Source: a virus. Taken from it: a stretch of DNA of 20,705 nucleotides. The translations under genes were made by a program, and so were the position numbers. Below are positions 7,307 through 20,380 of this stretch, piece after piece. Under the pieces are notes generated by a model. It was given only the letters and a program-made list of their open reading frames with translations. It was not told the origin of the DNA and ran no database searches. Within the stretch, counting starts at the first letter, position 1. The number at the start of each line of letters is the position of its first letter. The DNA lies in the IMG/VR virus record IMGVR_UViG_3300025771_000245, positions 1 to 20,705 of that record. The stretch is one strand, 5' to 3'.

Positions 7307-8119
7307 CTACTTAACTCGACCCTCTGCGTATGCTTTGAATATCTCGTCTGACATAGACTGATATCGTTCAGGGTCGGTTCGCATGAGTTTAATTATGTCA
7401 GCCCGACGATAAGTCTTCTTACGAGATCGCTCTGCTGTTCCTCTAGCAGTACCGGTAGTTGCAGCTTTGAGAGATTGTTTACGTGCTGTTCGTTCTACAC
7501 TGGCTGTCTGCTTAACCATTTGGTTACGCTCTTTCCAAAGACTAAACAACTCGTTAGCAGCGTCATAGTCATATTCCTGGTCTGCTGCTACAAACATCTG
7601 AGTCCTATATTTAGAAGCTTTGATCCACTCAGCAAATTTAGCGTCACCTAGTATCTCTTGCATGTCAGGATGTTCTGACTGTAGTTGTGCAAGTGCGGTT
7701 TGCTTCTTGTACTGCTCAGTGTACTGTTGTGCTTCTCTAATTTTAGGATGATTCTCAATAGCTTTACTAACGGCTGATTTAGGATCAGTAAAGAAATCAA
7801 TGTCGTCATCATCGTCAACGGGCTGTTGAACAGGTGTTTGTTTCTTTTCTTCGAGTTGTGTATGGATGAAGTCGTCTACGACCTTACGTAACTCACCAAC
7901 TTCGGAAGACTGACGACCAAGCATCTTTTCAGCTTCTTGGTGCATCTGTACAATTTCTTGTACTGACTTACCTTGGTACTTATCTGGTAAATCTTCTTCT
8001 TGAGGTTTGGCTTTCAGTTTAGGTTTTTCTTGAGTTGGCTCATCAAATGATGTAGCTTCAAGATCAGTTGTTGTAGAGTCGTCTTCAATACGCTCGTCTA
8101 TAATTGTCGCTCTTGACAT
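7307..8119 (-). CDS. Capsid assembly scaffolding protein
   Basis: The 270-residue protein is very acidic in its N-terminal half (DDDDDIDFF near residue 104), rich in Gln, Glu and Lys with no hydrophobic core, and largely helical. It ends in a strongly basic region with SRKKTYRRADIIKLM and a short helix rich in Tyr and Lys. An acidic helical body with a basic C-terminal helix that binds coat protein is the usual form of scaffold proteins. The place immediately before the capsid gene is the usual one. The start is supported by GGCGGAG nine bases before ATG. No protease domain is present. Confidence 0.8.
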   Translation of the reverse strand: MSRATIIDERIEDDSTTTDLEATSFDEPTQEKPKLKAKPQEEDLPDKYQGKSVQEIVQMHQEAEKMLGRQSSEVGELRKVVDDFIHTQLEEKKQTPVQQPVDDDDDIDFFTDPKSAVSKAIENHPKIREAQQYTEQYKKQTALAQLQSEHPDMQEILGDAKFAEWIKASKYRTQMFVAADQEYDYDAANELFSLWKERNQMVKQTASVERTARKQSLKAATTGTARGTAERSRKKTYRRADIIKLMRTDPERYQSMSDEIFKAYAEGRVK

Positions 8120-8176
8120 ATTAAACTACTCCGCCTTTTATTATGGTTATGGAGATAAATGTAAAAGGGTTAGCCG

Positions 8177-8401
8177 TTAGGCGTCCTTCTTTTTATTGCG
8201 TCCGGCTTTTTCATGTTCCCTAACCCATTTCATGTGCTGACCTGGAAAGTCTCCAGAAGCACCGTCAAGGTGGAAAGATGGGGCAGACACTAATCGCTTA
8301 GCATTAGCGCCACAACCACACCTACTAGTTGTGACGTCAGGCTGTACGAATTCTTCAAAGACATGTCCGTTAGTGCAACGGAAGTCATAGACTTTAAACA
8401 T
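8177..8401 (-). CDS. Small zinc-ribbon-like protein, FmdB type
   Basis: The 74-residue protein begins MFKVYDFRCTNGHVFEEFV and has a second cluster SRCGCGANAKRLVSAPSFH. Cys9 and His13 with Cys28 and Cys30 could bind zinc, in the pattern of FmdB-family ribbons (YxFxC-x-GH-xFE, then C-x-C, then RLxSAPSF). The C-terminus is basic (KAGRNKKKDA). The first knuckle has Gly-His where the family usually has a second Cys-Gly. These proteins are common in phage structural operons, where their role is unknown. The first 8 bases overlap the preceding gene, so translation is coupled. Confidence 0.7.
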   Translation of the reverse strand: MFKVYDFRCTNGHVFEEFVQPDVTTSRCGCGANAKRLVSAPSFHLDGASGDFPGQHMKWVREHEKAGRNKKKDA

Positions 8402-8648
8402 CTAAAGGTTCTTCGTCTTCTGCTTCTGCTTGCTCTCTAGCAGCAGTAATAGTGTTTTGTAAATTTATAATAGTCGCAAAGGCAGCTACTTGTCCTTTAC
8501 GATAATGTAAATCTTCTATGTCTTTTACTGTTTGAATATCAGCAAGCTGAGCAGCATTAGTAGAGAGTTCTTGTACGAGTTGTTTGAAACCTTCGTGGTT
8601 GAAGAGTTCGTTATAATTATTAAAATAAGTTTCAAGCTCGGGAGTCAT
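8394..8648 (-). CDS. Small helical hypothetical protein, first gene of capsid module
   Basis: The 84-residue acidic, helical protein has the pattern FNHEGFKQLVQEL in its first third and DIEDLHYRKGQVAAF with a C-terminal Glu/Asp tail. I know similar small proteins (FNHPGW, then YRRGQ) encoded just before scaffold or capsid genes in many marine phages, but no function. GAGGAAACT directly before ATG is a strong ribosome site. It is the first gene read from the promoter at 8671-8706, followed by the ribbon protein, scaffold and coat. Confidence 0.7.
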   Translation of the reverse strand: MTPELETYFNNYNELFNHEGFKQLVQELSTNAAQLADIQTVKDIEDLHYRKGQVAAFATIINLQNTITAAREQAEAEDEEPLDV

Positions 8649-8670
8649 AGTTTCCTCTAATGTTTAACTA

Positions 8671-8706
8671 TAGTAATAGTATAGCATATTTTTATTCATT
8701 TGTCAA
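8671..8706 (-). promoter_or_regulatory. Strong sigma70-type promoter for the capsid module
   Basis: The minus strand has TTGACA (8706-8701), a 17-base spacer and TATACT (8683-8678). The -10 is extended (TGC before TATACT), and the spacer is A/T rich. The -35 is perfect and the -10 matches 5 of 6. The -35 box overlaps the TGA stop of the QueC-like gene. Transcription should start near 8671, within or just before AACTATAGT (8666-8674), a word also found at the other main promoter. Confidence 0.85.
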
Positions 8707-9380
8707 GTCTTTTTTAGACTTTCTTGCATTGCTTTTTGACGATCACAAGCATGGCAGTCACCACACACAATAAAACCATCAAGAGCATCTGTAGGATGTC
8801 TACAGGACCAGTACATCTCACGTAGCTCTTCAGGCATACTTAAGTAGATACCTTTGCTACGTTCTACAGAGTTGTACGTCATGTGTTCAAAAGGTGCTAA
8901 CCAAATAGGCTTAACACGACGTGTAGTGCATAGTGCGTTTAACACACCTTGTGCTTCAGCACCTTCGTCCCTAAAGATGTTGTAGTCACCTGTATAAACA
9001 ATGTTAAATGTTTTACCTAAACCAGAAGCAACCCTCATAGCTTGGAATAGTGCAAGCACCATGTCTTTACCACCTGGATACTTAGCTTTCCAAGAGTACA
9101 CTGAGGAAGAAAACTCAAAGGGTCTTTGGTTCTTCCTCATGTAGTTGATCGTGTTCTCTATGGCTTTTGCTTCTGCTTTGACACGGCCTTCAGAGTTATC
9201 AATATGTATTGAGTGTACGTGTATGTCTTGTTCTGTGTGTTCCAAAAGGTTCCATAGTAATGACACACTGTCCATACCACCTGAGTACATTACTATGGCT
9301 GTTTCTTTGTCGTTCCCCTTGAAGTAGTTTTTGTTTAAACATATATCTAAAGCTTGCTTTACTTTAGTTTCATAACTCAC
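8703..9380 (-). CDS. queC: QueC-like 7-cyano-7-deazaguanine synthase (PP-loop ATPase)
   Basis: The 225-residue protein has the PP-loop ATP-binding motif SGGMDS at residues 33-38 after a beta strand (TAIVMY), and a following helix. A C-terminal four-Cys zinc site sits at Cys193, Cys206, Cys209 and Cys212 (WSC, then CGDCHACDRQ), as in QueC. QueC turns 7-carboxy-7-deazaguanine and ammonia into preQ0, using ATP. In phages, preQ0-pathway genes are linked to 7-deazaguanine DNA modification that protects from host nucleases, or to host tRNA queuosine supply. No queD, queE, folE or DNA transglycosylase (dpdA) gene is visible here. The gene overlaps the upstream small basic gene by 4 bases (ATGA), within the structural operon. 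A different PP-loop enzyme is possible but the Cys pattern argues for QueC. Confidence 0.8.
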   Translation of the reverse strand: MSYETKVKQALDICLNKNYFKGNDKETAIVMYSGGMDSVSLLWNLLEHTEQDIHVHSIHIDNSEGRVKAEAKAIENTINYMRKNQRPFEFSSSVYSWKAKYPGGKDMVLALFQAMRVASGLGKTFNIVYTGDYNIFRDEGAEAQGVLNALCTTRRVKPIWLAPFEHMTYNSVERSKGIYLSMPEELREMYWSCRHPTDALDGFIVCGDCHACDRQKAMQESLKKT

Positions 9381-9631
9381 TTTTTTCTACGTCTCCCTGA
9401 AGCTGTAACTGCGTGTTTTATTTTAGCAGGTCCGGTTTTTCGTCGCGCAGAAGAAGCCTTCTCAGCTTTGGTCATCTTAGCTGCAACAGCTTTAGGTCGA
9501 CAAGAAGGGTAAGGACGTTTACTCTTGGTAGCTGACTTACGACCACAAGGCTTACCCGTTTTAACGTCCACCCAGTCTTCTTTAAACCATTTCTTAAGGG
9601 CTGCACCCTCTTTACTTTTTCTTACGGCCAC
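9377..9631 (-). CDS. Small basic protein, DUF5872-like
   Basis: The protein is 84 residues if it begins at GTG 9631 (MAVRKSKEGAALKKW), or 92 from GTG 9655. I prefer 9631: GGGG lies 8 bases before it, the overlap with the upstream gene is smaller, and the domain I recall starts near this point. The motifs WFKEDWVDVKTGKPCGR and RPYPSCRPK with a Lys/Arg-rich tail match my memory of DUF5872, found in phages and large viruses and often next to similar small basic proteins. The function is unknown; the very basic, Cys-containing composition suggests nucleic-acid binding. It overlaps the QueC-like gene by ATGA. Confidence 0.7.
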   Translation of the reverse strand: MAVRKSKEGAALKKWFKEDWVDVKTGKPCGRKSATKSKRPYPSCRPKAVAAKMTKAEKASSARRKTGPAKIKHAVTASGRRRKK

Positions 9632-9773
9632 TTTTGTTACCCCAGTTTTTAGCACCTACCTTACGGCATTTGGCTACAGCACCAGAAGCGTACGCGGAAG
9701 GCCAGACTTTATATCTGGACTTGACCTTACGCGCACAAGCGTCGTTTGCCTTTTTAGTTTTTGCTTTTGGCAT
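9612..9773 (-). CDS. 53-residue basic protein with conserved YKVWPSAYASGA motif
   Basis: The frame runs from ATG 9773 to TAA 9612, filling a gap between two basic-protein genes. It begins MPKAKTKKANDACARKVKSR and has the block YKVWPSAYASGAVAKCRKV, then GAKNWG and a basic end. This KVWPSAYASG..CRKxGAxNWG pattern is one I recognise from small proteins in many phages and large viruses. About a third of residues are Lys or Arg and two Cys are conserved in position. The function is unknown. It overlaps the following gene by about 20 bases. Confidence 0.75.
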   Translation of the reverse strand: MPKAKTKKANDACARKVKSRYKVWPSAYASGAVAKCRKVGAKNWGNKSGRKKK

Positions 9774-9778
9774 AGCCG

Positions 9779-10039
9779 TTACTTCTTTTTCTTTCTGTTA
9801 GTTGCTGTTCGTTGACCGCGTTTTGGTAAAGCAACTTTCTTTTTAGGCTTTGTTGTTTTCATTCCGTAACCAGGCATAGCTTTCTCCTTTGCTGTCTTAG
9901 ACAGGTCTTCAAAATGGAAAAGTTTTACAGATGTCTTTCCGTGAGTTTTACCTGAGTGTAACGACCCATCAGGCATCTTGTGCGTACCGCCTGTATATTC
10001 AGTGCCGTCACGCTTATAATGTTTTACACCTTTAGCCAT
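9779..10039 (-). CDS. 86-residue basic protein with Gly/His-rich N-terminus
   Basis: The product begins MAKGVKHYKRDGTEYTGGTH and has KMPDGSLHSGKTH, then KLFHFEDLSKTAKEKA and a Lys/Arg-rich tail ending KKKK. Small proteins with KHYKxDGTEY..HKMPxG..HxGxxH..LFHFxDLS are familiar to me from marine phage structural regions. The N-terminal half looks like a small beta domain and the tail is highly positive. No enzyme motif is visible. The fit within a run of basic genes suggests a common role, perhaps with packaged DNA, which is inference. Confidence 0.7.
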   Translation of the reverse strand: MAKGVKHYKRDGTEYTGGTHKMPDGSLHSGKTHGKTSVKLFHFEDLSKTAKEKAMPGYGMKTTKPKKKVALPKRGQRTATNRKKKK

Positions 10040-10043
10040 AGTA

Positions 10044-10310
10044 TTACCATTTTTTACATGACCAGTATCTAGCTGTTAGTTTACTGGGCGGGTTTGTGTC
10101 ACACTTGTGACGCGCTCTGAACGACTTACGTCGCGCTGGCTGGTCTTTTTTGATAGTCATCTTAGCGTCACCAAAACGTATGGTCTTAGTCTTATCGCCT
10201 TGTTTGGCTACTACTACAAACTTCTTAGTAGGGTGATTAGGTGTTCTCTTTGGTTTGTTGAACCCGCTTACGCCCGCTCGTGCTAGTTTTGGGTCTTTCT
10301 TTGAGGGCAT
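10044..10310 (-). CDS. 88-residue basic protein, DUF5754-like
   Basis: The product begins MPSKKDPKLARAGVSGFNKP. Its core KKFVVVAKQGDKTKTIRFGD is followed by a block with RRKSFRARHKCD and a C-terminal KLTARYWSCKKW. The pattern VVAKxGxKxKTIRFGD...RRKSFRARHxC...ARYWSCKxW is one I recall from small virus and phage proteins, probably the DUF5754 family, though the name is from memory. The function is unknown and the protein is strongly basic. The ATG overlaps the portal stop by one base (TAATG), and the first quarter overlaps the coiled-coil gene at 10237-10422 in another frame. Confidence 0.7.
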   Translation of the reverse strand: MPSKKDPKLARAGVSGFNKPKRTPNHPTKKFVVVAKQGDKTKTIRFGDAKMTIKKDQPARRKSFRARHKCDTNPPSKLTARYWSCKKW

Positions 10311-10422
10311 TACTCAACTCCTCTATTTGGCGCTCCAGTAGGTCCAGTCGGTCGAACTGGCCTTTGAAGTTGTTGTTGATCTGGTCTAGGAGGATTTGCA
10401 TTTCGCGTTGCGTTATTAGCAT
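10237..10422 (-). CDS. Probable overlapping gene: 61-residue coiled-coil protein
   Basis: This frame overlaps the portal 3' end by 113 bases and the next gene's 5' end by 74. It looks real because AAGGA lies 7 bases before its ATG, a strong ribosome site inside the portal frame. The product has a good amphipathic helix (MQILLDQINNNFKGQFDRL, then DLLERQIEELSNAL) followed by a Lys/Arg/Thr-rich tail. The portal in this stretch is low-complexity Pro/Asn/Gln tail, so the second frame may be the constrained one. Short proteins of the type ITQREMQxLLxQIN..FxxxxxRLxxLE are known to me from other marine phages. The function is unknown. A chance frame cannot be excluded. Confidence 0.5.
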   Translation of the reverse strand: MLITQREMQILLDQINNNFKGQFDRLDLLERQIEELSNALKERPKTSTSGRKRVQQTKENT

Positions 10423-12349
10423 TAGATTGTCCTTTTTGGTCTATTGCTTTTTCTTTGATAAGCGTTTCAGCAACTTTTAGACGACGTTCAAACTCTTTGT
10501 CCTCTTGGTCACCTTCACGCAGGTTACGGGTAATAGCGTTAATCTTGTCAATTTCAAGCTCTTGAGGTACTGCTTGAGCTTCTGCAGCCAACTTAGCGGC
10601 TCTAGCCTGTGACTCTTGAGCCTGAGCAGATAGTGCTGCAGTTTGTGACTGCTGGAATGCCATCTGCGCTTGCTGAGCCTCCATTTGCATCTGTTGTGCT
10701 TGAGGATTAGGCTGCATTGCTTGCTGCATAGCTGCAATAAGCTCTTCACGGTTAGACAAGTTCATGTTGTCAATAACTGACTGTATTAGTGTACTGTACA
10801 ATGGTGAGTCCTGACCCATAGTCTGCAACAACTGTACAAGCTGAGTAACTTCGTATTCACGAGCAATAATTCCTAATGTACTGCTTGCATTAAACTTGTA
10901 GTCAGCAACAGGGTAGTTTTCTGGGTCAAACTGCATGTACCGATGTGCAGCTTTCTTAACAAATGGAATTAGGAAAGACTGCTGGAAGTTAATTAGTGTG
11001 CGCTTATGACGCTTAATAATAGCGCCAAGAGACATACTAATACCAGCGGCAGTAGCCTCGCCATTAACCTGACCTGCAATTCCTGCTGAGTCAACGGCTC
11101 CTGTTGCCTGCTGTACCATTTGCTGCAATGCTCCGGCTTGAGCAAAAGTGATTTGATTAACTTGACCAAAGTTGAATGGCTGGAGTACTTCACGCGGATC
11201 TCCGTTAGTCAGAATCATTTTACCAGGACGTACTTCTGGTTTTGCACCGCGTGGTAAACGAGTAGCGTCTATAGCCATCATCGGGTGAATAGTAAGGCTT
11301 AGTGCGTCAATACGTGCGCGTAGTTCTGTGTCCAAGGCTTTCTGACTGTTGTAACCTTTTTCACAAACACCACGACCCCAAAAGCGACCTGGTACTACGT
11401 CCCAAGGAAAAGCTACTACAGGACGATCAGACATCATGTAAGGGTTAGCCTCTGCCTTCAAAAGTATACCGCCGTTAGCAACCACTACAACGGCCTCTAC
11501 GTAACGTGACTCAGCGTCTACCTCTCCTACCACTTCTTCGTCTTCGTCGCTTACAGCGGAATCTAGAAGCTCTCGTGGCACTAAACCGTAGTACTTAGTT
11601 AAACGTACCTTGTCGTCGTTGTAAATAGTTAAGTCTTGGTCAGGTTCCAAATCAGTATCGGGAGCAGCGGAACCTACGTACACGTCACGGTACACGCCTT
11701 GTTCCTGTAGAAGTTCCACTTGGTGTTTACTAACAAACTCATCAATAGCTACACCCATAGCGTCTTCAACATTGGTTGCTACTGGATCAATCAGGAAGTT
11801 CTGAGGCATTACTGGCTTAAGCTTAACAACTACACGGTCAGTAATGTTGACACCAACTGCCTGCAACTGTCCTTCCATAATAGGCTCAGTAGCAGGAACC
11901 ATTTCCTTCATTTCTTCAATAACAATCTCACCAATGCCTGTACCAAAGACTGCTGAGTTAATTAGACACTCTGCGACAGCCTTACGTACCATGCAGTTTT
12001 CAAAGTCTTCCGTAAGCTTGTTACGTAGGAACTGCACGTCTTGTCTTTGGGTGTCACCAAGGTTGTCACTAACGTCAAACCACTTACCACGTCCGAAGGT
12101 GGCTTCTTCTAGTTCTGCTACATTAGACTCAACTGCTTGCTGAAGTGCAGGAGAAATAATACGGGAACGCTCAGACCCACGCTGGCTGTCAGCAGGATCC
12201 CATTGACCACGCCAGAGTCGATAATATTCTTCAAATTTACTTTCATAGTTGCTTTCGTAGTGGTCTCTCCAGTCTTCGCATTTAGTCATGACCCAGTCCT
12301 CAAGAGACTCTTGGATCATCAATGGGTCTTGTTCGTATAGTTCACTCAT
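10310..12349 (-). CDS. Portal protein (head-tail connector)
   Basis: The 679-residue protein starts MSELYEQDPLMIQESLEDW. Features seen: an early helix with WRDHYESNYESKFEEYYRLW, then SRIISPALQQAVESNVAELE, a wing-like central part with VVAFPWDVVPGRFWGRGVCE, and helices with GEATAAGISMSLGAIIKRH before the clip/stem region. A long Gln/Ala-rich helical C-terminus (from about 555) forms the barrel-like tail, ending in a Pro/Asn/Gln stretch. These are typical of P22-like or podovirus-type portals, which form the dodecameric ring for DNA entry and binding of terminase. It directly follows the large terminase gene, with AGGA 7 bases before ATG. Confidence 0.88.
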   Translation of the reverse strand: MSELYEQDPLMIQESLEDWVMTKCEDWRDHYESNYESKFEEYYRLWRGQWDPADSQRGSERSRIISPALQQAVESNVAELEEATFGRGKWFDVSDNLGDTQRQDVQFLRNKLTEDFENCMVRKAVAECLINSAVFGTGIGEIVIEEMKEMVPATEPIMEGQLQAVGVNITDRVVVKLKPVMPQNFLIDPVATNVEDAMGVAIDEFVSKHQVELLQEQGVYRDVYVGSAAPDTDLEPDQDLTIYNDDKVRLTKYYGLVPRELLDSAVSDEDEEVVGEVDAESRYVEAVVVVANGGILLKAEANPYMMSDRPVVAFPWDVVPGRFWGRGVCEKGYNSQKALDTELRARIDALSLTIHPMMAIDATRLPRGAKPEVRPGKMILTNGDPREVLQPFNFGQVNQITFAQAGALQQMVQQATGAVDSAGIAGQVNGEATAAGISMSLGAIIKRHKRTLINFQQSFLIPFVKKAAHRYMQFDPENYPVADYKFNASSTLGIIAREYEVTQLVQLLQTMGQDSPLYSTLIQSVIDNMNLSNREELIAAMQQAMQPNPQAQQMQMEAQQAQMAFQQSQTAALSAQAQESQARAAKLAAEAQAVPQELEIDKINAITRNLREGDQEDKEFERRLKVAETLIKEKAIDQKGQSNANNATRNANPPRPDQQQLQRPVRPTGPTGAPNRGVE

Positions 12350-13953: not shown

Positions 13954-14303
13954 TAGTAAGTCCACATAACAGGTGATGTACCGCGTGTGTCTACGTGTAC
14001 AAAACCCTTGTCAATACCAATGCCAGTAAACTTAAGCTCAATGGCTTTGGTTACAATCGTAAGGCGATCAGCGGCATTTGTTATTTTTATGTCTGCCGCG
14101 ATGCCTTGTGCGTGAGTACCAGGTACGTCTTTCTTAGCCTCTATAGGATGCTTGGTTGGATGCCTATAGCCACTCGTGACTTCAAAAGGAAAACCACATG
14201 CCTCACGTAACTCGTCTAACTTTTCTAAAAACTCTCGTTCCATGTTGTTGGTGCCTGTAACCTGACAGTCAAACTCTTCTCGTGTGAAGTACTTAAGAGA
14301 CAT
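13953..14303 (-). CDS. Endolysin, M15 (D-Ala-D-Ala type) peptidase
   Basis: The 116-residue single-domain protein carries the zinc ligands of peptidase M15: His64 and Asp71 in GTHAQGIAAD and His103 in FVHVDTRG (with Asp105), plus the SGYRHP block at 44-49. These enzymes cut peptidoglycan stem peptides. The short length and lack of signal peptide or cell-wall-binding domain suit a Gram-negative phage lysin released by a holin. Residues 1-40 hold the usual helix (FTREEFDCQVTG, MEREFLEKLDEL). It is separated from the holin by more than 12 kb and sits between small and large terminase genes. Confidence 0.85.
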   Translation of the reverse strand: MSLKYFTREEFDCQVTGTNNMEREFLEKLDELREACGFPFEVTSGYRHPTKHPIEAKKDVPGTHAQGIAADIKITNAADRLTIVTKAIELKFTGIGIDKGFVHVDTRGTSPVMWTY

Positions 14304-14676
14304 CTTCTACTTCTCCTTCAATAATGTCAGGTGTTGAGACCTCAGCAGTACCAACGCCACTAATGTTGATCTGAATAGCGTTTCTACCAGTGTCCTTTAC
14401 TACGTCTTTTTCAAAAGCACCTACAGGCAACATACGGTCCATAATTAACTTCCAAGCTGCAGCCTGATTCTTATGGTCGTTGTCCAAAGCAGCATCAAAA
14501 ATAGTCTCCAACACCAGTCGTGACTTAGGTGACGCCAACATACGTGCTTTGTATTCATTGATTATCGCTGCGTCACCCTTTGGTCGGCCTACTTTGCCTT
14601 TGTTACCTGGCTTAACAGCAGCTACTTCTGACTTTCGGGGTCTACCACGACCTCTTTTTTTTATTTCTTGAGTCAT
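14293..14676 (-). CDS. Putative terminase small subunit with two AT-hooks
   Basis: The 127-residue protein has AT-hook motifs GRGRPRK (9-15) and VGRPKGD (29-35) in a basic N-terminus. A helical core follows with IINEYKARMLASPKSRLVLE and HKNQAAAWKLIMDRMLP, and an acidic tail (GEVEDVS). AT-hooks bind the minor groove of A/T-rich DNA. DNA recognition at the N-terminus, helical oligomer core and place upstream of terminase large fit a small terminase subunit, which picks the packaging site. No enzyme motif is present, and a transcription regulator is an alternative. It is the first gene of the late block, read from the promoter at 14698-14733. Confidence 0.65.
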   Translation of the reverse strand: MTQEIKKRGRGRPRKSEVAAVKPGNKGKVGRPKGDAAIINEYKARMLASPKSRLVLETIFDAALDNDHKNQAAAWKLIMDRMLPVGAFEKDVVKDTGRNAIQINISGVGTAEVSTPDIIEGEVEDVS

Positions 14677-14697
14677 GATTAAAATTATCCCTAATTA

Positions 14698-14754
14698 CAA
14701 CTATAGTATAACACAAGTTTACACAAAAGTCAAGTTATTTTTTAGTTATTTTAC
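14698..14754 (-). promoter_or_regulatory. Main late promoter with A/T-rich UP-like element
   Basis: The minus strand has TTGACT (14733-14728), a 17-base spacer and TATACT (14710-14705), with TGT in front of the -10 as an extended element. Upstream of -35, positions 14734-14754 are almost only A and T (AAAATAACTAAAAAATAAC on the minus strand), like a UP element. The -10 region overlaps AACTATAGT (14699-14707). This looks like a strong host-sigma70 promoter for the minus-strand block, with start near 14698. Confidence 0.85.
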
Positions 14755-14969
14755 AAAGTAGTAGTTTTACTAGTGAAAACAATAGGTTACATGAGTAGTA
14801 ATTACCGTTATTTTTTCTAATTTTGGCTTATTTTGTGCTTAGGTGGCTACAACTATAGTTATACAGCGGCAACACGGGCTCCCCCCTTGAATTTACACCA
14901 GGAAACCGAAGAAGTCAAGTGGTAATTTACACAGTTGACATGGGTTGCAACTCGTGTTAGCCACTGGAG

Positions 14970-14986
14970 TTGGCATGGTTCTTGCA
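14970..14986 (+). promoter_or_regulatory. Sigma54-like -24/-12 motif, copy 1
   Basis: TTGGCATGGTTCTTGCA matches the core TTGGCAYG-N4-TTGCA: GG at -24 (14972-14973) and GC at -12 (14984-14985), 12 bases apart. It faces the plus-strand early genes, with a start expected near 14996. It may instead be part of the local repeat family (TTGRCAYGG) with another meaning. Confidence 0.4.
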
Positions 14987-15017
14987 CGAGGTGCACCATA
15001 AGACCAACACGGGAAAC

Positions 15018-15034
15018 TTGGCATGGTGTTTGCA
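15018..15034 (+). promoter_or_regulatory. Sigma54-like -24/-12 motif, copy 2
   Basis: TTGGCATGGTGTTTGCA repeats the same core 48 bases after copy 1, with the GG (15020-15021) and GC (15032-15033) spacing kept while the N4 changes (GTTC to GTGT). The expected start is near 15045. The conserved fixed bases and free spacer are what two real sites would show, but two copies of one repeat would look similar. Confidence 0.4.
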
Positions 15035-15218
15035 TGGGTTGACAAGTGTGTGAGCTTATGTTGGACCCTTTGGAGCTACCTTTATATCACGCACGTACGC
15101 GACTATATGATTCACCTGGTGTTGTCAATAGTCCAAACATGTGAAATATTTACAGTTGACACGGGTCATCAAATGCGGCCTAATGAAGTCAACAGCAACA
15201 AAGACGGAGCAACACAAC

Positions 15219-15467
15219 ATGACTACAACATACAACGGATGGACAAACAGAGAGACATGGCAGGCTAACCTATGGCTTGACAACGACGGCATCTTTGAGA
15301 TGTTTAGAGAAGATCGGGAAGCAGTAACACCGGAACGGCTAGAGTCATTCCTTGAGGAACTGCTACACGAGCACACTGGACAAGGCTCACTATTAGGTGA
15401 CATCGTTACCGACTGGATGTTATCGGTTAACTTTGACGAAATAACAGCCAACGTAAACGAGGAATAA
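15219..15467 (+). CDS. 82-residue early protein, DUF7249-like
   Basis: I place the start at ATG 15219 (MTTTYNGWTNRETWQANLWL), with ACGGAG 9 bases before it; longer frames start in the control region without a good site. The block YNGWTNRETWxxNLWLDND is one I recognise from a large family of small phage proteins (DUF7249). The middle is acidic (FREDREAVTPERLESFLEEL) and helical, and the end has DEITANVNEE. It is the first gene of the plus-strand block. The function is unknown; in this position it may be an early host-interaction protein, which is inference only. Confidence 0.75.
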   Translation: MTTTYNGWTNRETWQANLWLDNDGIFEMFREDREAVTPERLESFLEELLHEHTGQGSLLGDIVTDWMLSVNFDEITANVNEE

Positions 15468-15472
15468 ACACA

Positions 15473-15646
15473 ATGACAACTTATCAAGCGGCGTTGTACA
15501 AACTAAACAAAGCTAAAACACTGAAGGAACTTAAAAGGCTAGACAAAAGTTTTGAAAGGATTTACAACAATGGCTTGTTTACAGTCATTCAGTATCAGAC
15601 ACTAGATCAAAAACTGGTAGATAAACTAATTGAATTAGAGGGCTAA
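15473..15646 (+). CDS. 57-residue helical early protein
   Basis: The frame runs from ATG 15473 to TAA 15646, with GAGGA 9 bases before ATG, and exactly fills the gap between two genes. The product MTTYQAALYKLNKAKTLKE continues LKRLDKSFERIYNNGLF and ends LDQKLVDKLIELEG. It is a Lys/Leu-rich helical hairpin with no Cys or membrane segment. I do not recognise a family. The strong ribosome site and exact fit argue for coding. Confidence 0.7.
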   Translation: MTTYQAALYKLNKAKTLKELKRLDKSFERIYNNGLFTVIQYQTLDQKLVDKLIELEG

Positions 15647-15649
15647 CCA

Positions 15650-15886
15650 ATGAAACTTAAGCAACTAGGCAGCAACAAGACACAAGTCACCTTCGACCTT
15701 CATACTGGCAAGATGGACGTGTTGTTCAGCTATGAGACACCAGTGGCAGCATGGCTACCAAACAGAGGCTACATACGCACAAACCAGAAGTTTAGCGTTA
15801 CCACTACCAAACACATTAACCAGTGGCTAAACGGTGCTGAAGCTCAGGAAGTGCCGCAGTCACAACTAGAGGAGCTAGTATCATGA
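15650..15886 (+). CDS. 78-residue early protein, DUF8033-like
   Basis: The product begins MKLKQLGSNKTQVTFDL and has FSYETPVAAWLPNRGYIRT, then FSVTTTKHINQWLNGAEA. The pattern (KQLGSNKTxVxF, LFSYxTPVAAxxPxRGYIRT, SVTTxxHINQWL) matches a family of small beta-rich phage proteins that I know as DUF8033. The function is unknown. The gene follows the 57-residue gene by 3 bases and overlaps the next by ATGA, in a tight early operon. Confidence 0.75.
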   Translation: MKLKQLGSNKTQVTFDLHTGKMDVLFSYETPVAAWLPNRGYIRTNQKFSVTTTKHINQWLNGAEAQEVPQSQLEELVS

Positions 15887-16104
15887 AGGACACTATTGAC
15901 TGCTTTACAAGCTTTGACATGAACCAAGGTAAAACTAAAGTATTCTGCGGCTACTCAGGCATAAACAATGCTCACATAGTCTGGAGACAAGATGGTGACT
16001 ACGTGGGCAACATGTTGATCTACAGTGACGCTGGAGACGCTTTGGAGGACTTCAATACACGTAAAGAGTTTGCACAGTCTATGGGAGCGCTAGATCATGT
16101 TTGA
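15883..16104 (+). CDS. 73-residue hypothetical early protein
   Basis: The product begins MKDTIDCFTSFDMNQGKTKV and continues with FCGYSGINNAHIVWRQDGDY and an acidic helical end with DALEDFNTRKEF. It seems to be a small alpha/beta protein and I recognise no family. Its start overlaps the preceding stop by ATGA, and its last 8 bases overlap the next small membrane-protein gene. The short spacing and overlaps fit an early operon of host-takeover genes, though its own role cannot be seen. Confidence 0.7.
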   Translation: MKDTIDCFTSFDMNQGKTKVFCGYSGINNAHIVWRQDGDYVGNMLIYSDAGDALEDFNTRKEFAQSMGALDHV

Positions 16105-16222
16105 ACAGTGGCAACCATGGTGGGACGTTGTGATCCTTTTGGTGGGCTTTGGCATCACGTCAATGGTACTTAAGGCATACGAGATGCGAACCAGGAAACC
16201 CAAAGGAGCAACCAGGAAATGA
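16097..16222 (+). CDS. 41-residue single-pass membrane protein
   Basis: The frame runs from ATG 16097 to TGA 16222, overlapping the upstream gene by 8 bases and the methyltransferase-like gene by ATGA. GGGAG lies 9 bases before its ATG. The product is MFEQWQPWWDVVILLVGFGI then TSMVLKAYEMRTRKPKG, with one membrane span (about 10-27) after a Trp-rich start and a positive C-terminal tail, so the tail is probably cytoplasmic. The function is unknown. The overlap on both sides supports it as a coupled gene rather than a chance frame. Confidence 0.65.
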   Translation: MFEQWQPWWDVVILLVGFGITSMVLKAYEMRTRKPKGATRK

Positions 16223-16803
16223 GAGTCTTAGTCGCTTGTGAATATTCAGGGAGAGTAAGAGAAGCCTTTGCAGCTTTAGGGCATGATGCGTGGTCATGTG
16301 ATCTATTACCTGCAGATGATAACTCATCAAAGCATTATCAAGAGGACTGCATCGGAGTAATGAAACGAGAACAATGGGACATTATCATAATGCACCCGCC
16401 ATGCACAGCTTTAGCTGTCTCTGGTAACGCTTGGTACGGTCAAGGCATGCCAAAACATAACGAGAGACTGAAGGCCATAGAGTGGACTAGAGAGCTTTGG
16501 GAGACTGCAAAGGCAAACGCTAAGTTTGTCTGTATGGAAAATCCTGTTGGTGTCTTACCTTTTAAGCCTACGCAGTATGTTCAGCCTTGGATGTTTGGAC
16601 ATCCTGAGTCAAAGAAAACCGGCCTTTGGTTGCACAACTTACCGCCATTAACTGAGACTGACAACGTAAAAGAAGTAATGGACAAACTTCCAAAGAACCA
16701 ACAACAGAGAATTCATTACTTACCACCTAGTGCTGACAGATGGAAGATTAGAAGCACTACCTTTGAAGGCGTAGCGGAAGCTATGGCTAATCAATGGGGG
16801 TAA
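16219..16803 (+). CDS. Small C5-cytosine-methyltransferase-like protein
   Basis: The 194-residue protein has VLVACEYSGRVREAF (3-17) at the usual SAM-loop place, CD at 27-28 after the second strand, DIIIMHPPCTALAVSG (54-69) with Pro-Pro-Cys62 as in motif IV, and MENP (106-109) as in motif VI (ENV in bacterial enzymes). It also has QPWMFGHPESKKTGLWL (122-138) and a C-terminal TTFEGVAEAMANQWG resembling motif X. It lacks the FxGxG of motif I and any target-recognition domain; bacterial enzymes have over 300 residues. Such short forms are common in phages and are usually annotated as DNA methyltransferases, though activity is seldom shown. AAGGAG lies 10 bases before ATG. It may protect phage DNA or act on nucleotides; the target is unknown. 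Confidence 0.75.
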   Translation: MRVLVACEYSGRVREAFAALGHDAWSCDLLPADDNSSKHYQEDCIGVMKREQWDIIIMHPPCTALAVSGNAWYGQGMPKHNERLKAIEWTRELWETAKANAKFVCMENPVGVLPFKPTQYVQPWMFGHPESKKTGLWLHNLPPLTETDNVKEVMDKLPKNQQQRIHYLPPSADRWKIRSTTFEGVAEAMANQWG

Positions 16804-16806
16804 CTT

Positions 16807-16950
16807 ATGAAATTTAACTTTTACTTTTCGTCTAAACCTATGCTACAACTATTGTACATACCAAGCCATAACAACTTAAGATATACCTACGTGTTGTCCG
16901 TTGCATGGTTTAGGTGTGAAATAAGTAAATATTACTGGAGGTACTTTTGA
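16807..16950 (+). CDS. 47-residue hypothetical protein
   Basis: The frame starts at ATG 16807, after GGGGG with 6-base spacing, and ends TGA 16950. The product MKFNFYFSSKPMLQLLYIPS continues with LRYTYVLSVAWFRCEISKYY and WRYF. It is aromatic-rich with a possible short membrane or surface helix. Small proteins with an ending like VLSxAWxxxEISxYYW occur in other phages I recall, without a role. Its stop overlaps the next gene's TTG start (TTGA), in keeping with coupling. The start site and tight placement are the main evidence. Confidence 0.6.
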   Translation: MKFNFYFSSKPMLQLLYIPSHNNLRYTYVLSVAWFRCEISKYYWRYF

Positions 16951-17111
16951 AGAACAGAAGCCACGTAAAGGACTACTTTATGTCACAGGAAGAAGTAGCC
17001 AAAGCGTTAAACATGACACGTTCAGAAGTTCAACAAACGGAATGCACAGCATTGAAGAAGTTAAAACGATCAGGTAAGCTCAGGAGATACGTAGGAGCTA
17101 AGGAGAACTAA
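16947..17111 (+). CDS. Small HTH protein, sigma-70 region-4-like
   Basis: I choose TTG 16947 as start because GGAGG lies 5 bases before it and TTGA joins it to the previous stop; an ATG at 16980 would remove 11 residues and lacks this site. The 54-residue product MKNRSHVKDYFMSQEEVAKA continues LNMTRSEVQQTECTALKKLK and ends in a basic stretch. The block MSQEEVAKALNMTRSEVQQTE..ALKKLKR matches sigma-70 region 4.2 (TLEEVGxxLGVTRERVRQIE..ALRKLR), the helix-turn-helix that binds the -35 box. It has no region 2, so it cannot act as a full sigma factor. It could compete with or redirect host polymerase at -35 sites. Confidence 0.7.
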   Translation: MKNRSHVKDYFMSQEEVAKALNMTRSEVQQTECTALKKLKRSGKLRRYVGAKEN

Positions 17112-17113
17112 AG

Positions 17114-17368
17114 ATGGCGAGAGAACTAGTGGACATCTGGCAGGACGACTATGACAACATGGTGGAAGGCAAAGGCATCTATCGGGACTACGAGAGAGAT
17201 CCTGAAGAGGAGCCGGACTTTGACGCTATGGACACGACAGTAACTAATTTACTGCTAACCACTGAGGAACTAAACCAGGAACACCAGAGGCAACTAGAGA
17301 GAATGCAACAGTTAGCCGACGCAATTAAACACTGGAGATACTTAACAGGGAGAATTAACAATGGTTGA
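17114..17368 (+). CDS. 84-residue acidic hypothetical protein
   Basis: The product begins MARELVDIWQDDYDNMVEGK and has an acidic middle (ERDPEEEPDFDAMD) followed by a long Gln/Glu/Arg helix with LTTEELNQEHQRQLERMQQL and a basic end (HWRYLTGRINNG). The helix would form a coiled coil, so the protein is probably a dimer or binds a partner. I recognise no family. AAGGAG is 8 bases before ATG, just after the region-4-like gene, and the end overlaps the next gene by 8 bases. An acidic early protein could mimic DNA, but nothing specific supports that. Confidence 0.7.
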   Translation: MARELVDIWQDDYDNMVEGKGIYRDYERDPEEEPDFDAMDTTVTNLLLTTEELNQEHQRQLERMQQLADAIKHWRYLTGRINNG

Positions 17369-17558
17369 ACATATGCTGCCACCAGATCCTACAGACTACT
17401 TTAGTGCTGCAGAAATGGATTACATGATGGCTATGATTGAGGACTATGAAGTTGAAATGTTTAGACTTCAGGTGAAACAAAGGCTGAAAGAGATGGACAG
17501 GAGCGACCTAGAGCGCAACATGTTGGACATCTACGGAGACGACTGGAAAAACATATGA
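17361..17558 (+). CDS. 65-residue acidic, Met-rich hypothetical protein
   Basis: The product begins MVEHMLPPDPTDYFSAAEMD, then YMMAMIEDYEVEMFRLQVKQ and ends LDIYGDDWKNI. It is highly acidic, helical and rich in Met, with no zinc or membrane motif. I recognise no family. GGGAG 8 bases before ATG and the 8-base and ATGA overlaps with its neighbours indicate translation in a coupled series. Confidence 0.65.
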   Translation: MVEHMLPPDPTDYFSAAEMDYMMAMIEDYEVEMFRLQVKQRLKEMDRSDLERNMLDIYGDDWKNI

Positions 17559-17743
17559 GATGTAAAGCATGTGATCGAATATTGGAAGAAAAAGAATTGT
17601 TAAAGAAAGACAACCAAGGGAACTTTATTGATCTATGCAACAACTGCTTATTTTCTTCTATAGATACTAATGTAGACAGCATTGGTACTATTACTGAGGA
17701 TTTATTCTTGACAAATGATGAGGACTATGATACCCTCTACTAA
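17555..17743 (+). CDS. 62-residue zinc-ribbon protein
   Basis: The product begins MRCKACDRILEEKELLKKD and has a second pair in IDLCNNCLFSS. Cys3-x2-Cys6 and Cys28-x2-Cys31 make a four-Cys zinc ribbon, and an acidic tail (EDLFLTNDEDYDTLY) follows. Ribbons of the form MRCKACDxxL..LCxxC are common early proteins in marine phages and may bind nucleic acid or polymerase subunits. The specific role is not known. It ends the first early group; the 139-base gap with the 13-bp repeats follows. Confidence 0.75.
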   Translation: MRCKACDRILEEKELLKKDNQGNFIDLCNNCLFSSIDTNVDSIGTITEDLFLTNDEDYDTLY

Positions 17744-17766
17744 AGTAGTACCTATGTAGTACCTTA

Positions 17767-17845
17767 GAAGTAAACAGAAGTAGTTAAACATTAGTAGTAA
17801 ACAAAAGTAGTAAACAAAAGTAGTAAACAAAAGTAGTAAACAACA
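17767..17845 (+). repeat. 13-bp tandem repeats in a gene-free gap (iteron-like)
   Basis: The word AGTAGTAAACAAA is repeated head-to-tail at 17793, 17806, 17819 and 17832 (the fourth copy ends AAC). Two or three degenerate copies precede it (AAGTAAACAG and AAGTAGTTAAACATT from about 17768). GTAGTAC/TAGTAC words flank the array. It lies in the only gap of this size (17744-17882, 139 bases) within the early block. Such arrays act as iterons of replication origins or as binding sites for regulators. There are no spacers of constant length, so it is not a CRISPR array. Confidence 0.8.
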
Positions 17846-17882
17846 TTAGTACTTCAGTAGTACAACAGGAGATAACTTAAGT

Positions 17883-18137
17883 ATGATTAGAGACGAGTTT
17901 AGTGTGTACGAAGTGACCGGAGGTGACTACTCCATTTATCGACTAGGCTTCATTGAGGCCAGAGAGATCGCTAACGAGATAATGAGGCGTGACCCTTATG
18001 GTGGTATACCTTTTGTTTTTAAGCTTGAGATGGACGCTAGAGAAGCTCCTAGCGACACTGTGAAAATCAGTAGGTCCGACTTTGAAGTATTCCTGGACAA
18101 AGTTAGTGATCCATTTCCAACACCAGAGGACGATTAA
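17883..18137 (+). CDS. 84-residue hypothetical protein
   Basis: The product begins MIRDEFSVYEVTGGDYSIYR and has LGFIEAREIANEIMRRDPYG, then FVFKLEMDAREAPSDTVKIS and an acidic end (PFPTPEDD). It is predicted to be a small alpha/beta protein. I recognise no family. It is the first gene after the 13-bp repeats; AGGAG is 11 bases before ATG. It is followed by a 62-residue gene after one base and then the SSB gene, so a role in replication or its control is possible from place only. Confidence 0.65.
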   Translation: MIRDEFSVYEVTGGDYSIYRLGFIEAREIANEIMRRDPYGGIPFVFKLEMDAREAPSDTVKISRSDFEVFLDKVSDPFPTPEDD

Positions 18138-18138
18138 C

Positions 18139-18327
18139 ATGACTTACAAACAACTATTGGAAGTTTTACAGCGTATGCCTGAGTGTTATCTTGACCAACA
18201 AGTGACTTTCAGTTCTGGAGAAGAAGACGAGCAAGTAATCAATGCAGCTAGAATTTCCTACTTTACGTACCTTGTGAACGATCCTAGTATGCCAACAGAA
18301 GGCAACTTTGTGTTGGCTTTTGACTAA
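18139..18327 (+). CDS. 62-residue hypothetical protein
   Basis: I place the start at ATG 18139, which has GAGGA 8 bases before it, rather than at the in-frame ATG 18082 within the upstream gene. The product MTYKQLLEVLQRMPECYLDQ continues QVTFSSGEEDEQVINAARIS and ends FVLAFD. The layout (a first helix TYKQLLExLxxMPxxxLxxxVT, an acidic loop and short strands) is shared with short phage proteins that I have seen without a function. It follows the previous stop by one base. Confidence 0.65.
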   Translation: MTYKQLLEVLQRMPECYLDQQVTFSSGEEDEQVINAARISYFTYLVNDPSMPTEGNFVLAFD

Positions 18328-18342
18328 ATGATGTGGTATAAT
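18313..18342 (+). promoter_or_regulatory. Extended -10 promoter before the SSB gene
   Basis: TATAAT (18337-18342) is a perfect -10 box with TGG directly before it (an extended -10). A partial -35, TTGGCT, lies 18 bases upstream (18313-18318). Transcription should start near 18349, about 50 bases before the SSB ATG at 18400. An inverted repeat CTAGA-GAGGA-TCTAG (18353-18367) lies at the start of the transcript and could be an operator or hairpin. Confidence 0.6.
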
Positions 18343-18399
18343 ATTAGTATGGCTAGAGAGGATCTAGTCGCAACCCAAGTAGAAACGGAGATTATTCCA

Positions 18400-18771
18400 A
18401 TGGCAACAATCGAAGGCATTTGTAACTTTAGCAACCTAACTGAGCATGACGTGTACAACGGTCAGGACACCGGCCAATTCTCTATGACTATCACTGTGTC
18501 AGAGGACGACGCCAGTGAATTAGCGGCGCTAGGTGTAAAGATTAAGGACTACCAAGGTGCTAAGCAGCGTAAGTTTAAGTCAAAGTACGACGTACGGACA
18601 TTTGACGCTGAAGGTAATCCTTACAGAGGTGAAGTACCTTATAACTCTAAGGTTCGCCTGAAGTACAAGCTAGGTCAGCCACATCCTGTACACGGTGTGT
18701 CTACTTACCTGGAAGCAGTAAAAGTTTTAGAAGAAGCAGAGTTGGAACTAGGAGAACTCGCAGACTTCTAA
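18400..18771 (+). CDS. ssb: Single-stranded DNA-binding protein
   Basis: I choose ATG 18400 (MATIEGICNFSNLTEHDV), with CGGAG 9 bases before it; the frame is open back to 18328 but that part includes a promoter and has no site. The 123-residue product is beta-rich with an OB-fold pattern (FSMTITVSED, KSKYDVRTFD, SKVRLKYKLGQPH). It ends in an acidic tail with a C-terminal Phe (ELELGELADF), the mark of SSB proteins that contact polymerase or helicase. It coats single-stranded DNA during replication. It is shorter than T7 gp2.5 (232 residues). The primase-helicase gene follows after one base. Confidence 0.75.
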   Translation: MATIEGICNFSNLTEHDVYNGQDTGQFSMTITVSEDDASELAALGVKIKDYQGAKQRKFKSKYDVRTFDAEGNPYRGEVPYNSKVRLKYKLGQPHPVHGVSTYLEAVKVLEEAELELGELADF

Positions 18772-18772
18772 C

Positions 18773-20380
18773 ATGGCTAACTTTGTGAGACATGAAGGGT
18801 GTCCCAAGTGTAATTCTTCGGACGCCCTTGCTATTTACGACGACGGTTCTACGCATTGCTTTAGTGCCGTTTGTGATTACCATACAGGTGGAACAGGTGA
18901 CATGTCCGAAGTTATACCCATTGCAAAAGCTAAGCCACTACAGATGTTTGGTACAGTGGCGGCTATACCTAACAGAAGAATATCCAAAGAAACCTGTATG
19001 CGCTTTGGCGTTACCATTGAGTACGGCACTACAGGTGAAATAGTCAAACACTACTACCCTTACTATGACGTAAACACAGGTGAAGTATGTGCAGCCAAAG
19101 TCAGAGAAGTCAAAACCAAAAACTTTTTTAGTAACGGAGACCCAAAGAATGCTGGGTTCTTCGGACAACAACAGTGCAGTACTAACAAGTTCATAACAAT
19201 CACGGAAGGTGAACTTGACGCCTTAGCTGTGTACGAGATGTTCAACAAGCAGTACGACGTGGTGTCACTACGTGCAGGTGCGTCCTCTGCAGCCAAGGAG
19301 ATCAAGGAACAGCTAGAGTGGCTCGAAGGGTACGACCAAGTGGTACTCTGCTTTGACAATGACAAGGCCGGTGACGCTGCTCTGGAACAAGTCAAAGATC
19401 TCTTTAGCCCCAACAAGTTAAAAATAGTAAAGTTACCGTTGAAGGACGCCAGTGACATGCTCATGGCGAACCGTGTTAAGGACTTTACGCAAGCATGGTG
19501 GAATGCAAAGGTTTACCGTCCTGACGGCATTGTTGCAGGAACTGACACATGGGACACACTGGTACAAAAGCGCCAGGTGAAGTCCATACCTTATCCTTGG
19601 AACGGCCTCAATGAGTTAACAAGAGGACATCGGCCTTATGAGTTGGTCACGATCACTAGCGGCAGTGGTATGGGAAAGTCCCAATTTATCAGAGAAATCG
19701 AATATGATTTACTACGCCGATGCGAAGGCAATATTGGAGTCTTGGCGCTTGAGGAAGATTTGGCCAGAACATCGCTTGGTATCATGTCGGTGGCAGCAAA
19801 CAGACCCTTACACTTGGAAGAGGACACGCCAGTGGACGAGCTTCGGCCATTCTGGGAAGCCACATTGGGAACAGGACGTTACTACTTATTTGACCATTGG
19901 GGGTCAACTTCAGCAGATAACTTGCTCGCCCGTGTTCGCTACATGGCAAAAGCACTTGACTGCCGGTACGTCGTACTGGATCACTTGTCCATCGTCGTCA
20001 GTTCCCAAGAGTCAGGAGACGAGAGAAAAGCCATTGACGAGATCATGACACGCCTACGCACACTCGTAGCTGAAACAGGCATCTGCCTATTCCTCGTGTC
20101 ACACTTACGCAGGTCACAAGGCAAGGCACACGAGGACGGAGCACAGATCAGCTTAGGTGAACTACGTGGTTCACAAGCTATCGCACAGTTGTCAGACATT
20201 GTCATTGGTATGGAACGTGACCAGCAGAACGAAAACGAAGACGTAAGAAACACTACTACTGTTCGTGTCCTCAAGAATAGGTACACAGGTGAAACTGGAC
20301 CCGCTTGTTGGCTGCAGTACGACAAACAAACAGGGAGGTTACAGGAAGTCGTAAATCCTAATGCAAATGAGGACTTTTGA
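18773..20380 (+). CDS. Primase-helicase, T7 gp4-type
   Basis: The 535-residue protein has an N-terminal zinc ribbon with Cys10, Cys13, Cys29 and Cys34. A TOPRIM primase part follows, with ITEGELDAL (about 142-150) and LCFDNDKAGD (about 192-201). The C-terminal DnaB-type helicase has Walker A ITSGSGMGKSQF (about 293-304), Walker B VVLDHLSI (about 400-407) and SHLRRSQ/GELRGSQAIAQ. It makes RNA primers and unwinds DNA at the fork as a ring, powered by nucleotide hydrolysis. The end NEDF is an acidic tail with a final Phe, as in T7 gp4. It lies one base after the SSB gene, with no strong ribosome site, so it is probably coupled. The polymerase gene should be nearby to the right. Confidence 0.92.
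   Translation: MANFVRHEGCPKCNSSDALAIYDDGSTHCFSAVCDYHTGGTGDMSEVIPIAKAKPLQMFGTVAAIPNRRISKETCMRFGVTIEYGTTGEIVKHYYPYYDVNTGEVCAAKVREVKTKNFFSNGDPKNAGFFGQQQCSTNKFITITEGELDALAVYEMFNKQYDVVSLRAGASSAAKEIKEQLEWLEGYDQVVLCFDNDKAGDAALEQVKDLFSPNKLKIVKLPLKDASDMLMANRVKDFTQAWWNAKVYRPDGIVAGTDTWDTLVQKRQVKSIPYPWNGLNELTRGHRPYELVTITSGSGMGKSQFIREIEYDLLRRCEGNIGVLALEEDLARTSLGIMSVAANRPLHLEEDTPVDELRPFWEATLGTGRYYLFDHWGSTSADNLLARVRYMAKALDCRYVVLDHLSIVVSSQESGDERKAIDEIMTRLRTLVAETGICLFLVSHLRRSQGKAHEDGAQISLGELRGSQAIAQLSDIVIGMERDQQNENEDVRNTTTVRVLKNRYTGETGPACWLQYDKQTGRLQEVVNPNANEDF

Follow-up and report, generated by a model that had tools for sequence, protein, structure and literature searches.

What are two sequences that match the recognition core of the bacterial sigma factor sigma54 doing between the late and the early genes of a marine phage? 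The locus lies in a 20,705-base fragment of an uncultured marine phage, here called the window (i.e. the whole stretch of DNA analysed; the record itself is no longer than this fragment). Its leftward genes, encoding the capsid, an SU10/P22-like portal, the large terminase and a likely small terminase, diverge from rightward early genes across a gap at 14677-15218. The likely small terminase gene (terS; 14293-14676, minus strand) is named solely from its position before the large terminase gene; its product has no match in PHROGs and an AT-hook motif in Pfam. The early genes begin with DUF7249 (82 aa; 15219-15467, plus strand) and include a methyltransferase-like gene, a gene for a weakly matching Gp2.5-like ssDNA-binding protein and one for a T7-type primase-helicase. 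The 25 best-listed primases of cultured phages are 44-50% identical and belong mostly to marine phages, those of Pelagibacter and Roseobacter first. When the DNA of 14677-16810 was compared with that of cultured phages, five records matched, solely within query positions 1541-2127 (the methyltransferase-like gene), and nothing matched inside the gap; the whole window gave no Rfam match at the gathering threshold. A portal search of bacterial genomes gave a single MAG contig, labelled Sphingobacteriales, which is too little for naming a host. Two further genes of the window may be mentioned: a 54-aa protein (16947-17111) with a sigma-70 region 4-like match (Pfam PF04545, E 8.9e-6) is possibly a small -35-binding regulator, and a leftward gene amid the structural genes (8703-9380) with weak PP-loop/QueC matches (Pfam E about 5e-5) possibly has a role in DNA modification.

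The two copies of TTGGCATG-N4-TTGCA were found exactly where the earlier note had placed them, at 14970 and 15018. Site 1, TTGGCATG-GTTC-TTGCA (14970-14986, plus strand), has its GG at 14972-14973 and its GC at 14984-14985 and is kept in relatives; site 2, TTGGCATG-GTGT-TTGCA (15018-15034, plus strand), lies 48 bases past it. If transcribed, they are predicted to give starts near 14997 and 15045, respectively. In both, GG and GC are 12 bases apart within TGGCAYR-N4-TTGCW, as in sigma54 promoters. These are the sole matches to TTGGCATGNNNNTTGCA in the window with up to two mismatches, a count that is unimpressive by itself, since whole-window shuffles contained 0.78 matches on average and 19 of 100 also reached two. 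The core TGGCAYR-N4-TTGCW, with no mismatch allowed, is more telling: none of 20,000 dinucleotide shuffles of 14677-15218 contained two sites and 18 contained one, and there is no further match elsewhere in the window.

Relatives were fetched without use of the motif, by searches with TerL and the primase-helicase, each of which contributed its best 80 loci (160 in all). The regions upstream of terS cut from these loci, together with copies of the window, number 87, of which 77 are distinct. Fifty loci, the window included, have TerS at least 85% identical and form the close set, in which the first 620 bases were scanned. A count of the motif, suggested in the earlier note, gave just two sites in the window and, with a lax pattern, one to six in the gap between terS and the early genes in 32 of the 50 close loci; the strict form TTGGCAYG-N4-TTGC matched in 28 of the 50 records and its reversal in none. 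(Loci repeating a contig were dropped, eight from the spacer, mismatch and tree counts and a slightly different eight from the gene-content test.) Across the 50 loci, TTGC stands after TTGGCAY at the sigma54 spacing 84 times; no such combination was seen with any of twelve other spacers, or downstream. Every distinct plus-strand TTGGCAY site with full flanks (77) has TTGC in that position, the next base being A (69%) or T (30%). It had also been proposed that relatives keeping the repeat while losing its GG or GC would speak against sigma54. The opposite was observed: among the 21 loci that have at least two sites (chosen for two or more lax matches, window included) there are 96 perfect copies of TGGCAYR-N4-TTGCW and one with a single mismatch, at W, and the N4 between the half-sites varies across relatives while GG and GC are kept.

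The degenerate columns point the same way. Among 29 intergenic Salmonella sites predicted in ChIP-enriched regions, Y is divided 59/38, R 66/34 and W 48/45 (Table 3 of PMC3844500). The corresponding figures for 898 phage sites are 57/43 for Y (C/T), 86/14 for R and 46/44 for W (A/T), where the choice at Y and R was restricted by the search and W was free. Thus, Y and W resemble the Salmonella columns, and R is less alike (G 86 in phages vs 66 in Salmonella; PMC3844500). Sixty-six arrays outside the window's family contain 108 single departures, of which 74 affect the first T of TTGC or the W and one the GG or TG. The Salmonella sites depart at the last C in 4/29 and at W in 2/29 (PMC3844500), whereas the phage arrays seldom do so at C and most often at W. 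With the fixed columns kept, the spacing specific and the degenerate columns Salmonella-like, the sequences appear to behave as sigma54 recognition sites, as the earlier note had supposed, and it seems improbable that both kinds of column should agree with sigma54 by chance.

The same note had lumped the two sites with repeats of TTGRCAYGG at 14935 and 15156. TTGACAYG is indeed found nearby, and in several relatives the TTGACAYG of the 14935 element stands 35 nt before a sigma54-type site. The TTGACATG at 14935, however, belongs to a different element, the dyad-like TTGACATGGGTTGCAACTCGTGTTAGCC around the palindrome GTTGCAAC (14935-14962); its TTGC is two bases closer than the sigma54 spacing and it is devoid of the GG, so it is not a sigma54 site. 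TTGRCAYGG itself is not enriched (with one mismatch, 18 in the window vs 13.3 expected). That the sites are a matter of chance or a by-product of such a phage-specific repeat is hardly credible, for all the TTGACAYG elements nearby, given the 0/20,000 shuffles, the absence of pairs at other spacers and the 0/50 records with the reversed control.

Several other elements share the gap. The stretch 14677-14830, beside the array, is AT-rich (76% A+T) and resembles a DNA unwinding element, and within it lies a weak IHF-like site (14777-14789, plus strand) with one mismatch to WATCAANNNNTTR, a pattern that has an exact match close to the array in 22 of the 70 related loci. A sigma70-type promoter, TTGACT-N17-TATACT (14705-14733, minus strand; 10 of 12 letters), reads to terS and the late genes. 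On the plus strand, a putative sigma70-type early promoter recognised by eye and missed by both promoter scans, TTGACA-N17-CCTAAT (15156-15184; 10 of 12 letters), could serve the early genes. A block GGGTTGACAAGTGTGTGAGCTTATGTTGGACCC (15036-15068) is recognisable by eye in relatives with DnaA boxes and in those with sigma54-type sites alike. At 14816-14889 a block like CTAATTTTGSCTTATTTTGTGCTTAGGTGGCTAC is followed by a C-rich run, seen by eye in the terS gap of relatives, also at TerS identity near 66%; it could be a packaging site or part of an origin. The gap of the window (14677-15218) contains no DnaA box, even with one mismatch allowed.

Sister phages carry such boxes at this very place, which the letters of the window alone could not reveal to the earlier note. 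In 18 of the 50 close loci the gap holds 4-11 copies of the DnaA box TTATNCACA; six loci combine a DnaA-box array with sigma54-type sites (L005, L006, L007, L010, L015 and L034), and six have neither a site nor at least four boxes. Two or more sigma54-type sites (21/50 loci) never occur together with four or more DnaA boxes. A DnaA-box scan of 20 records revealed five dense clusters (G012, G013, G017, G018 and G040), all of them in this gap, the remaining boxes being scattered. Of 27 regions further removed (TerS below 80%), four have one or two sites, two have DnaA boxes and 21 have neither; some of these distant regions show other repeats. Two loci whose TerL rows are identical carry different arrays: L011 has ten boxes and no sigma54-type site, L012 three sites and no box. 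In a TerL tree obtained by a short search for 39 loci, the labels for array type cluster by kinship (10 changes in total; none of 200 shuffles needed so few), and the DnaA type requires four changes, at least three of them forced by the starred branches. Early-gene cluster 17 is present in 7 of 10 DnaA-type, 2 of 2 mixed and 0 of 19 sigma54-type loci, with clusters 20 and 26 behaving similarly, and small early genes accompany the DnaA-box arrays of L005, L015, L018, L034, L122, L123, L124, L127, L128 and L135. Since cluster 17 goes with the DnaA-box arrays, the array and its adjoining early genes seem to be exchanged as a single module. The replacement of sigma54-type sites by DnaA boxes in place suggests that these phages may use two host proteins interchangeably at their control region.

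Sites of this kind are not confined to the window's family. Viral contigs contain at least 120 stretches with two sites 6-36 bases apart (5-base-spacer control 1, reversed-motif control 0) and at least 120 head-to-head pairs. A set of 218 loci (L164-L381) was fetched by the motif itself; therefore, they count as evidence only in what the search had left free, namely the unspecified columns, additional sites, neighbours and DnaA boxes. For 122 of them, tblastn with six window proteins gave no match in the stretch examined, which in some cases is short, and some (e.g. L240, L229, L340) have quite different terminases with the same site specificity. Loci were classed as outside the family when they had no tblastn match, a TerL match under 45% at most, or none of four family gene clusters, so that some short ones may still be kin. 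The densest arrays comprise up to 12 sites in 500 bases; L255 has ten tandem sites in 288 bases, the sole ones in its 55,863-base record, and across 20 whole records, none of which matches the reversed control, sites mostly occur in clusters. In 245 distinct arrays (sequence-identical ones counted once, here as in the counts of DnaA-box density, orientation and promoters) neighbouring sites are mostly 18-22 bases apart when head to head, 23-25 or 35 when back to back and 25-28 when in tandem. A hairpin explanation of the dyads was dropped: in 180 dyads the two N4 were identical once, with 26% base agreement vs 33% for random pairing, so the unlike arms represent two sites. The sigma54 holoenzyme covers about 30 bases, and head-to-head partners at these spacings could therefore not be filled together.

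Cultured phages offer few examples. Three arrays compared by blast with cultured phages gave weak matches, and of the four followed, Pseudomonas phage vB_Pae_Kat (6 sites) and Vibrio phage D419 carry sites, and Colwellia 9A and Ruegeria 45A6 carry none. These two carriers, both reached through an array, are the only ones among 17 cultured records scanned; some of the other 15 presumably infect hosts that have sigma54. In D419, five sites and five perfect DnaA boxes, partly intermixed, lie within about 5 kb of a DNA transfer gene.

DnaA boxes accompany the arrays more widely. In 132 motif-fetched loci that are not close kin, TTATCCACA is 9.6-fold denser within 300 bases of an array than further away (14 boxes in nine loci), with reversed and permuted box controls in the same loci at 0-1.7. 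There, IHF-like and LexA-like patterns are also denser near arrays (4.4-fold and 2.7-fold, respectively), so part of the DnaA-box rise may reflect intergenic base composition. In 70 related loci, TTATNCACA is 52.5-fold denser near the array, and the reversed control ACACNTATT is also up, 9.8-fold. TTATCCACA stands within 30 bases upstream of a site in 97 stretches (reversed box 0), of which 90 belong to the wider family of the window (mostly TerS 60-79%) and seven have no match; gaps of 10-11 or 21-22 bases are found at 31 of the 53 family junctions (59 distinct junctions in all), a spacing that may be inherited because 90 of the 97 come from that wider family. A title-level search for phage DnaA boxes in print turned up papers on bacterial genomes instead.

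Which protein binds the arrays? Searches of 50 records (20 outside the family, 2 cultured; many of them fragments) found no sigma54 DNA-binding domain, and no sigma54 activator domain was found in 50 family records, again including many fragments, a result that says nothing of activators encoded by the host. The same applies to the T7-type RNA polymerase that sites acting as T7-type promoters would call for (0 of 50 family records, many fragments); the first run of this search had no control match, and the same search finds P-SSP7 and CRP-125. One of 41 records, many of them fragments, encodes a DnaA box-binding domain. This is G065 (the L166 record), in which a 142-aa frame at 11579-11767 has domain PF08299 (E 2.9e-11); the phage has an array of five sigma54-type sites, and its small terminase is a different one. 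A lineage-specific phage protein was dropped as the binder on the basis of gene content: in 37 loci whose early region exceeds 3,800 bases, the sigma54-type arrays have no gene cluster that goes with them, and clusters 20 and 26, like cluster 17, follow the DnaA-box type instead. For 133 of 197 neighbours of non-family arrays, terminases top the tally (largest family 9 members), and no recurring DNA-binding family is present among the families shown (25/79 PHROGs, 25/28 Pfam). The occurrence of one specificity in phages with unlike terminases therefore suggests that a conserved host protein, itself fixed in its specificity, is the binder. As sigma54 is the protein known for this sequence, we infer that E-sigma54 is the probable ligand of the arrays.

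We favour, while giving it close to an even chance, the view that the two motifs are high-affinity docking sites for host E-sigma54 in an origin-like control region and not ordinary early promoters. The region may be called origin-like because of the DnaA arrays in sister phages, the AT-rich stretch and the IHF-like sites. E-sigma54, which needs an activator ATPase to open DNA, would bind the two motifs as an inert closed complex. Alone or together with DnaA on adjacent boxes, it would build a nucleoprotein complex beside the AT-rich stretch, while sigma70-type promoters at both sides would read the early and late genes. The arrays of the multiplying phage copies could also draw away host sigma54 (or DnaA). 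As to what such docking serves, origin control, promoter occlusion, DNA entry and titration are all conjecture. Among the observations against docking are that the best-listed cultured primases are mainly those of Pelagibacter and Roseobacter phages and that 15 of 17 cultured records are free of sites. SAR11, to our knowledge, lacks rpoN.

The chief rival is that the sites are ordinary repeated sigma54 promoters, at which E-sigma54 and a host activator start early transcription near 14997 and 15045. The earlier note had proposed that the early genes may in this way be tied to host nitrogen or stress control. The perfect -24/-12 core with W after TTGC agrees with this reading, and so does the orientation, since both window sites face the early genes, and 38 of 42 majority-oriented family arrays with a callable gene likewise face a co-oriented ORF. 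Outside the family, this holds for just 46 of 70 such arrays (ORFs called mechanically, those overlapping an array set aside). An ORF of at least 75 aa, again mechanically called, overlaps 32/60 family and 64/88 other arrays, so the latter are only putatively non-coding. Sigma70-type promoters (up to two mismatches, within 300 bases) moreover stand beside many family arrays: 38 of 60 have one upstream, on the opposite strand and the terS side, and 12 of 60 one downstream on the same strand (shuffles 1.5 in both cases). For non-family arrays the figures are 12/88 downstream (shuffles 2.1) and 6/88 upstream (2.2), and most of these arrays thus have no sigma70-type promoter by that scan. The promoter reading is also disfavoured by the packing, with dense and partly head-to-head arrays whose spacings seem too small to give each site its own polymerase (head-to-head pairs mostly 18-22 apart, tandems most often 25-28), and by the exchange of arrays with DnaA boxes. 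Some large phages fit it better. In three records of 94-161 kb, sites are strung over kilobases (G061, 16582-19611; G067, 8095-11762; G068, 82667-104404), with 14/18 sites of G061 and 12/13 of G068 on one strand; they differ from the compact arrays of small phages and could be true promoters. In the window, which has just two sites, each pointing at the early genes, and lacks DnaA boxes, the sites may be ordinary tandem promoters. Sequence does not separate docking from plain promoters for these two forward sites; we favour docking and regard promoters as rather unlikely.

Unlikely, too, and a little more so, is the proposal that the repeats are iterons of an origin initiator or regulator other than sigma54 (a phage protein, or a conserved host protein not yet described) that shares the specificity of sigma54 by coincidence. 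The dense direct and inverted repeats by an AT-rich stretch, with IHF-like sites and DnaA boxes, would suit it, as would the near absence of one-mismatch sites in the family. However, no initiator gene accompanies the arrays (no tracking cluster in 37 loci, and terminases lead the non-family neighbours), and it is improbable that fixed and degenerate columns should both equal those of sigma54 by coincidence. The DNA specificities of phage proteins, furthermore, seldom stay fixed across unrelated phages.

We consider it very unlikely that the arrays mark a DNA end or a packaging or entry region similar to the injection stop of T5, where bound host proteins would brake or anchor the entering DNA. 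A TerL-like protein cluster is found in 61 of 115 dense loci, mostly kin of the window, and terminases head the neighbour tally outside the family. D419 has its sites and boxes near a DNA transfer gene whose product suggests a T5-like phage, and the left end of T5 itself has perfect DnaA boxes at 6121, 6194 and 9510, the last inside the annotated injection-stop signal and the other two about 3 kb before it. Yet T5 is without a sigma54-type site, and in family records of about 35 kb (G010, G012, G034) the array or boxes lie at 18-23 kb, which, if these records are complete, is not at an end.

If E-sigma54 does bind the arrays, sigma54 would acquire a further role in phage biology, and phages relying on it could be found by a simple pattern. 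The replacement by DnaA boxes at the same spot supplies natural paired variants for testing what arrays for host proteins do. Sigma54 regulons include those for nitrogen, pilus/flagellum and phage-shock functions, and if the arrays titrate sigma54, infection would switch these off via the DNA itself. A wider generalisation, which we offer as doubtful, is that many kinds of phage carry docking arrays for E-sigma54 and DnaA, two host proteins with a DNA specificity that scarcely evolves, and that these arrays replace each other because they do the same job, the loading of a scarce host protein, whose dilution would act as a copy-number clock and strip the host of sigma54 or DnaA. Arrays of sigma54 sites in phages were not described in the titles and abstract openings returned by an open PMC full-text search.

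Compared with known systems, the phage sites share the fixed columns of TGGCAYR-N4-TTGCW with bacterial sigma54 (RpoN) promoters and have degenerate columns similar to those of the 29 Salmonella sites (PMC3844500). They differ from such promoters in showing fewer departures at the last C than these Salmonella sites (PMC3844500) and in the absence of an activator domain from the 50 family records. Unlike sigma54 promoters, the phage arrays are dense, often head to head and often accompanied by DnaA boxes and sigma70-type promoters. In the iteron origins known from phages and plasmids, dense direct repeats stand beside an AT-rich stretch, and window-type arrays have the same build; they differ in that no initiator gene tracking the repeats was found and in that one sequence recurs in phages with different terminases. 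The injection-stop region of T5 is reported to have DnaA boxes and palindromes and to be a place that may meet host components (PMC13250531). D419, with its mixture of sigma54-type sites and DnaA boxes near a DNA transfer gene, resembles that region, whereas the window phage has a T7-type primase-helicase and an SU10/P22-like portal, and T5 is without sigma54-type sites. DnaA boxes also form titrating clusters such as datA. The window differs from DnaA-box origins (oriC) in that its sites are of the sigma54 type, with no DnaA box even at one mismatch; it is like them in its AT-rich stretch, its IHF-like sites and its array of sites for a host protein, and its sister phages carry arrays of TTATNCACA.
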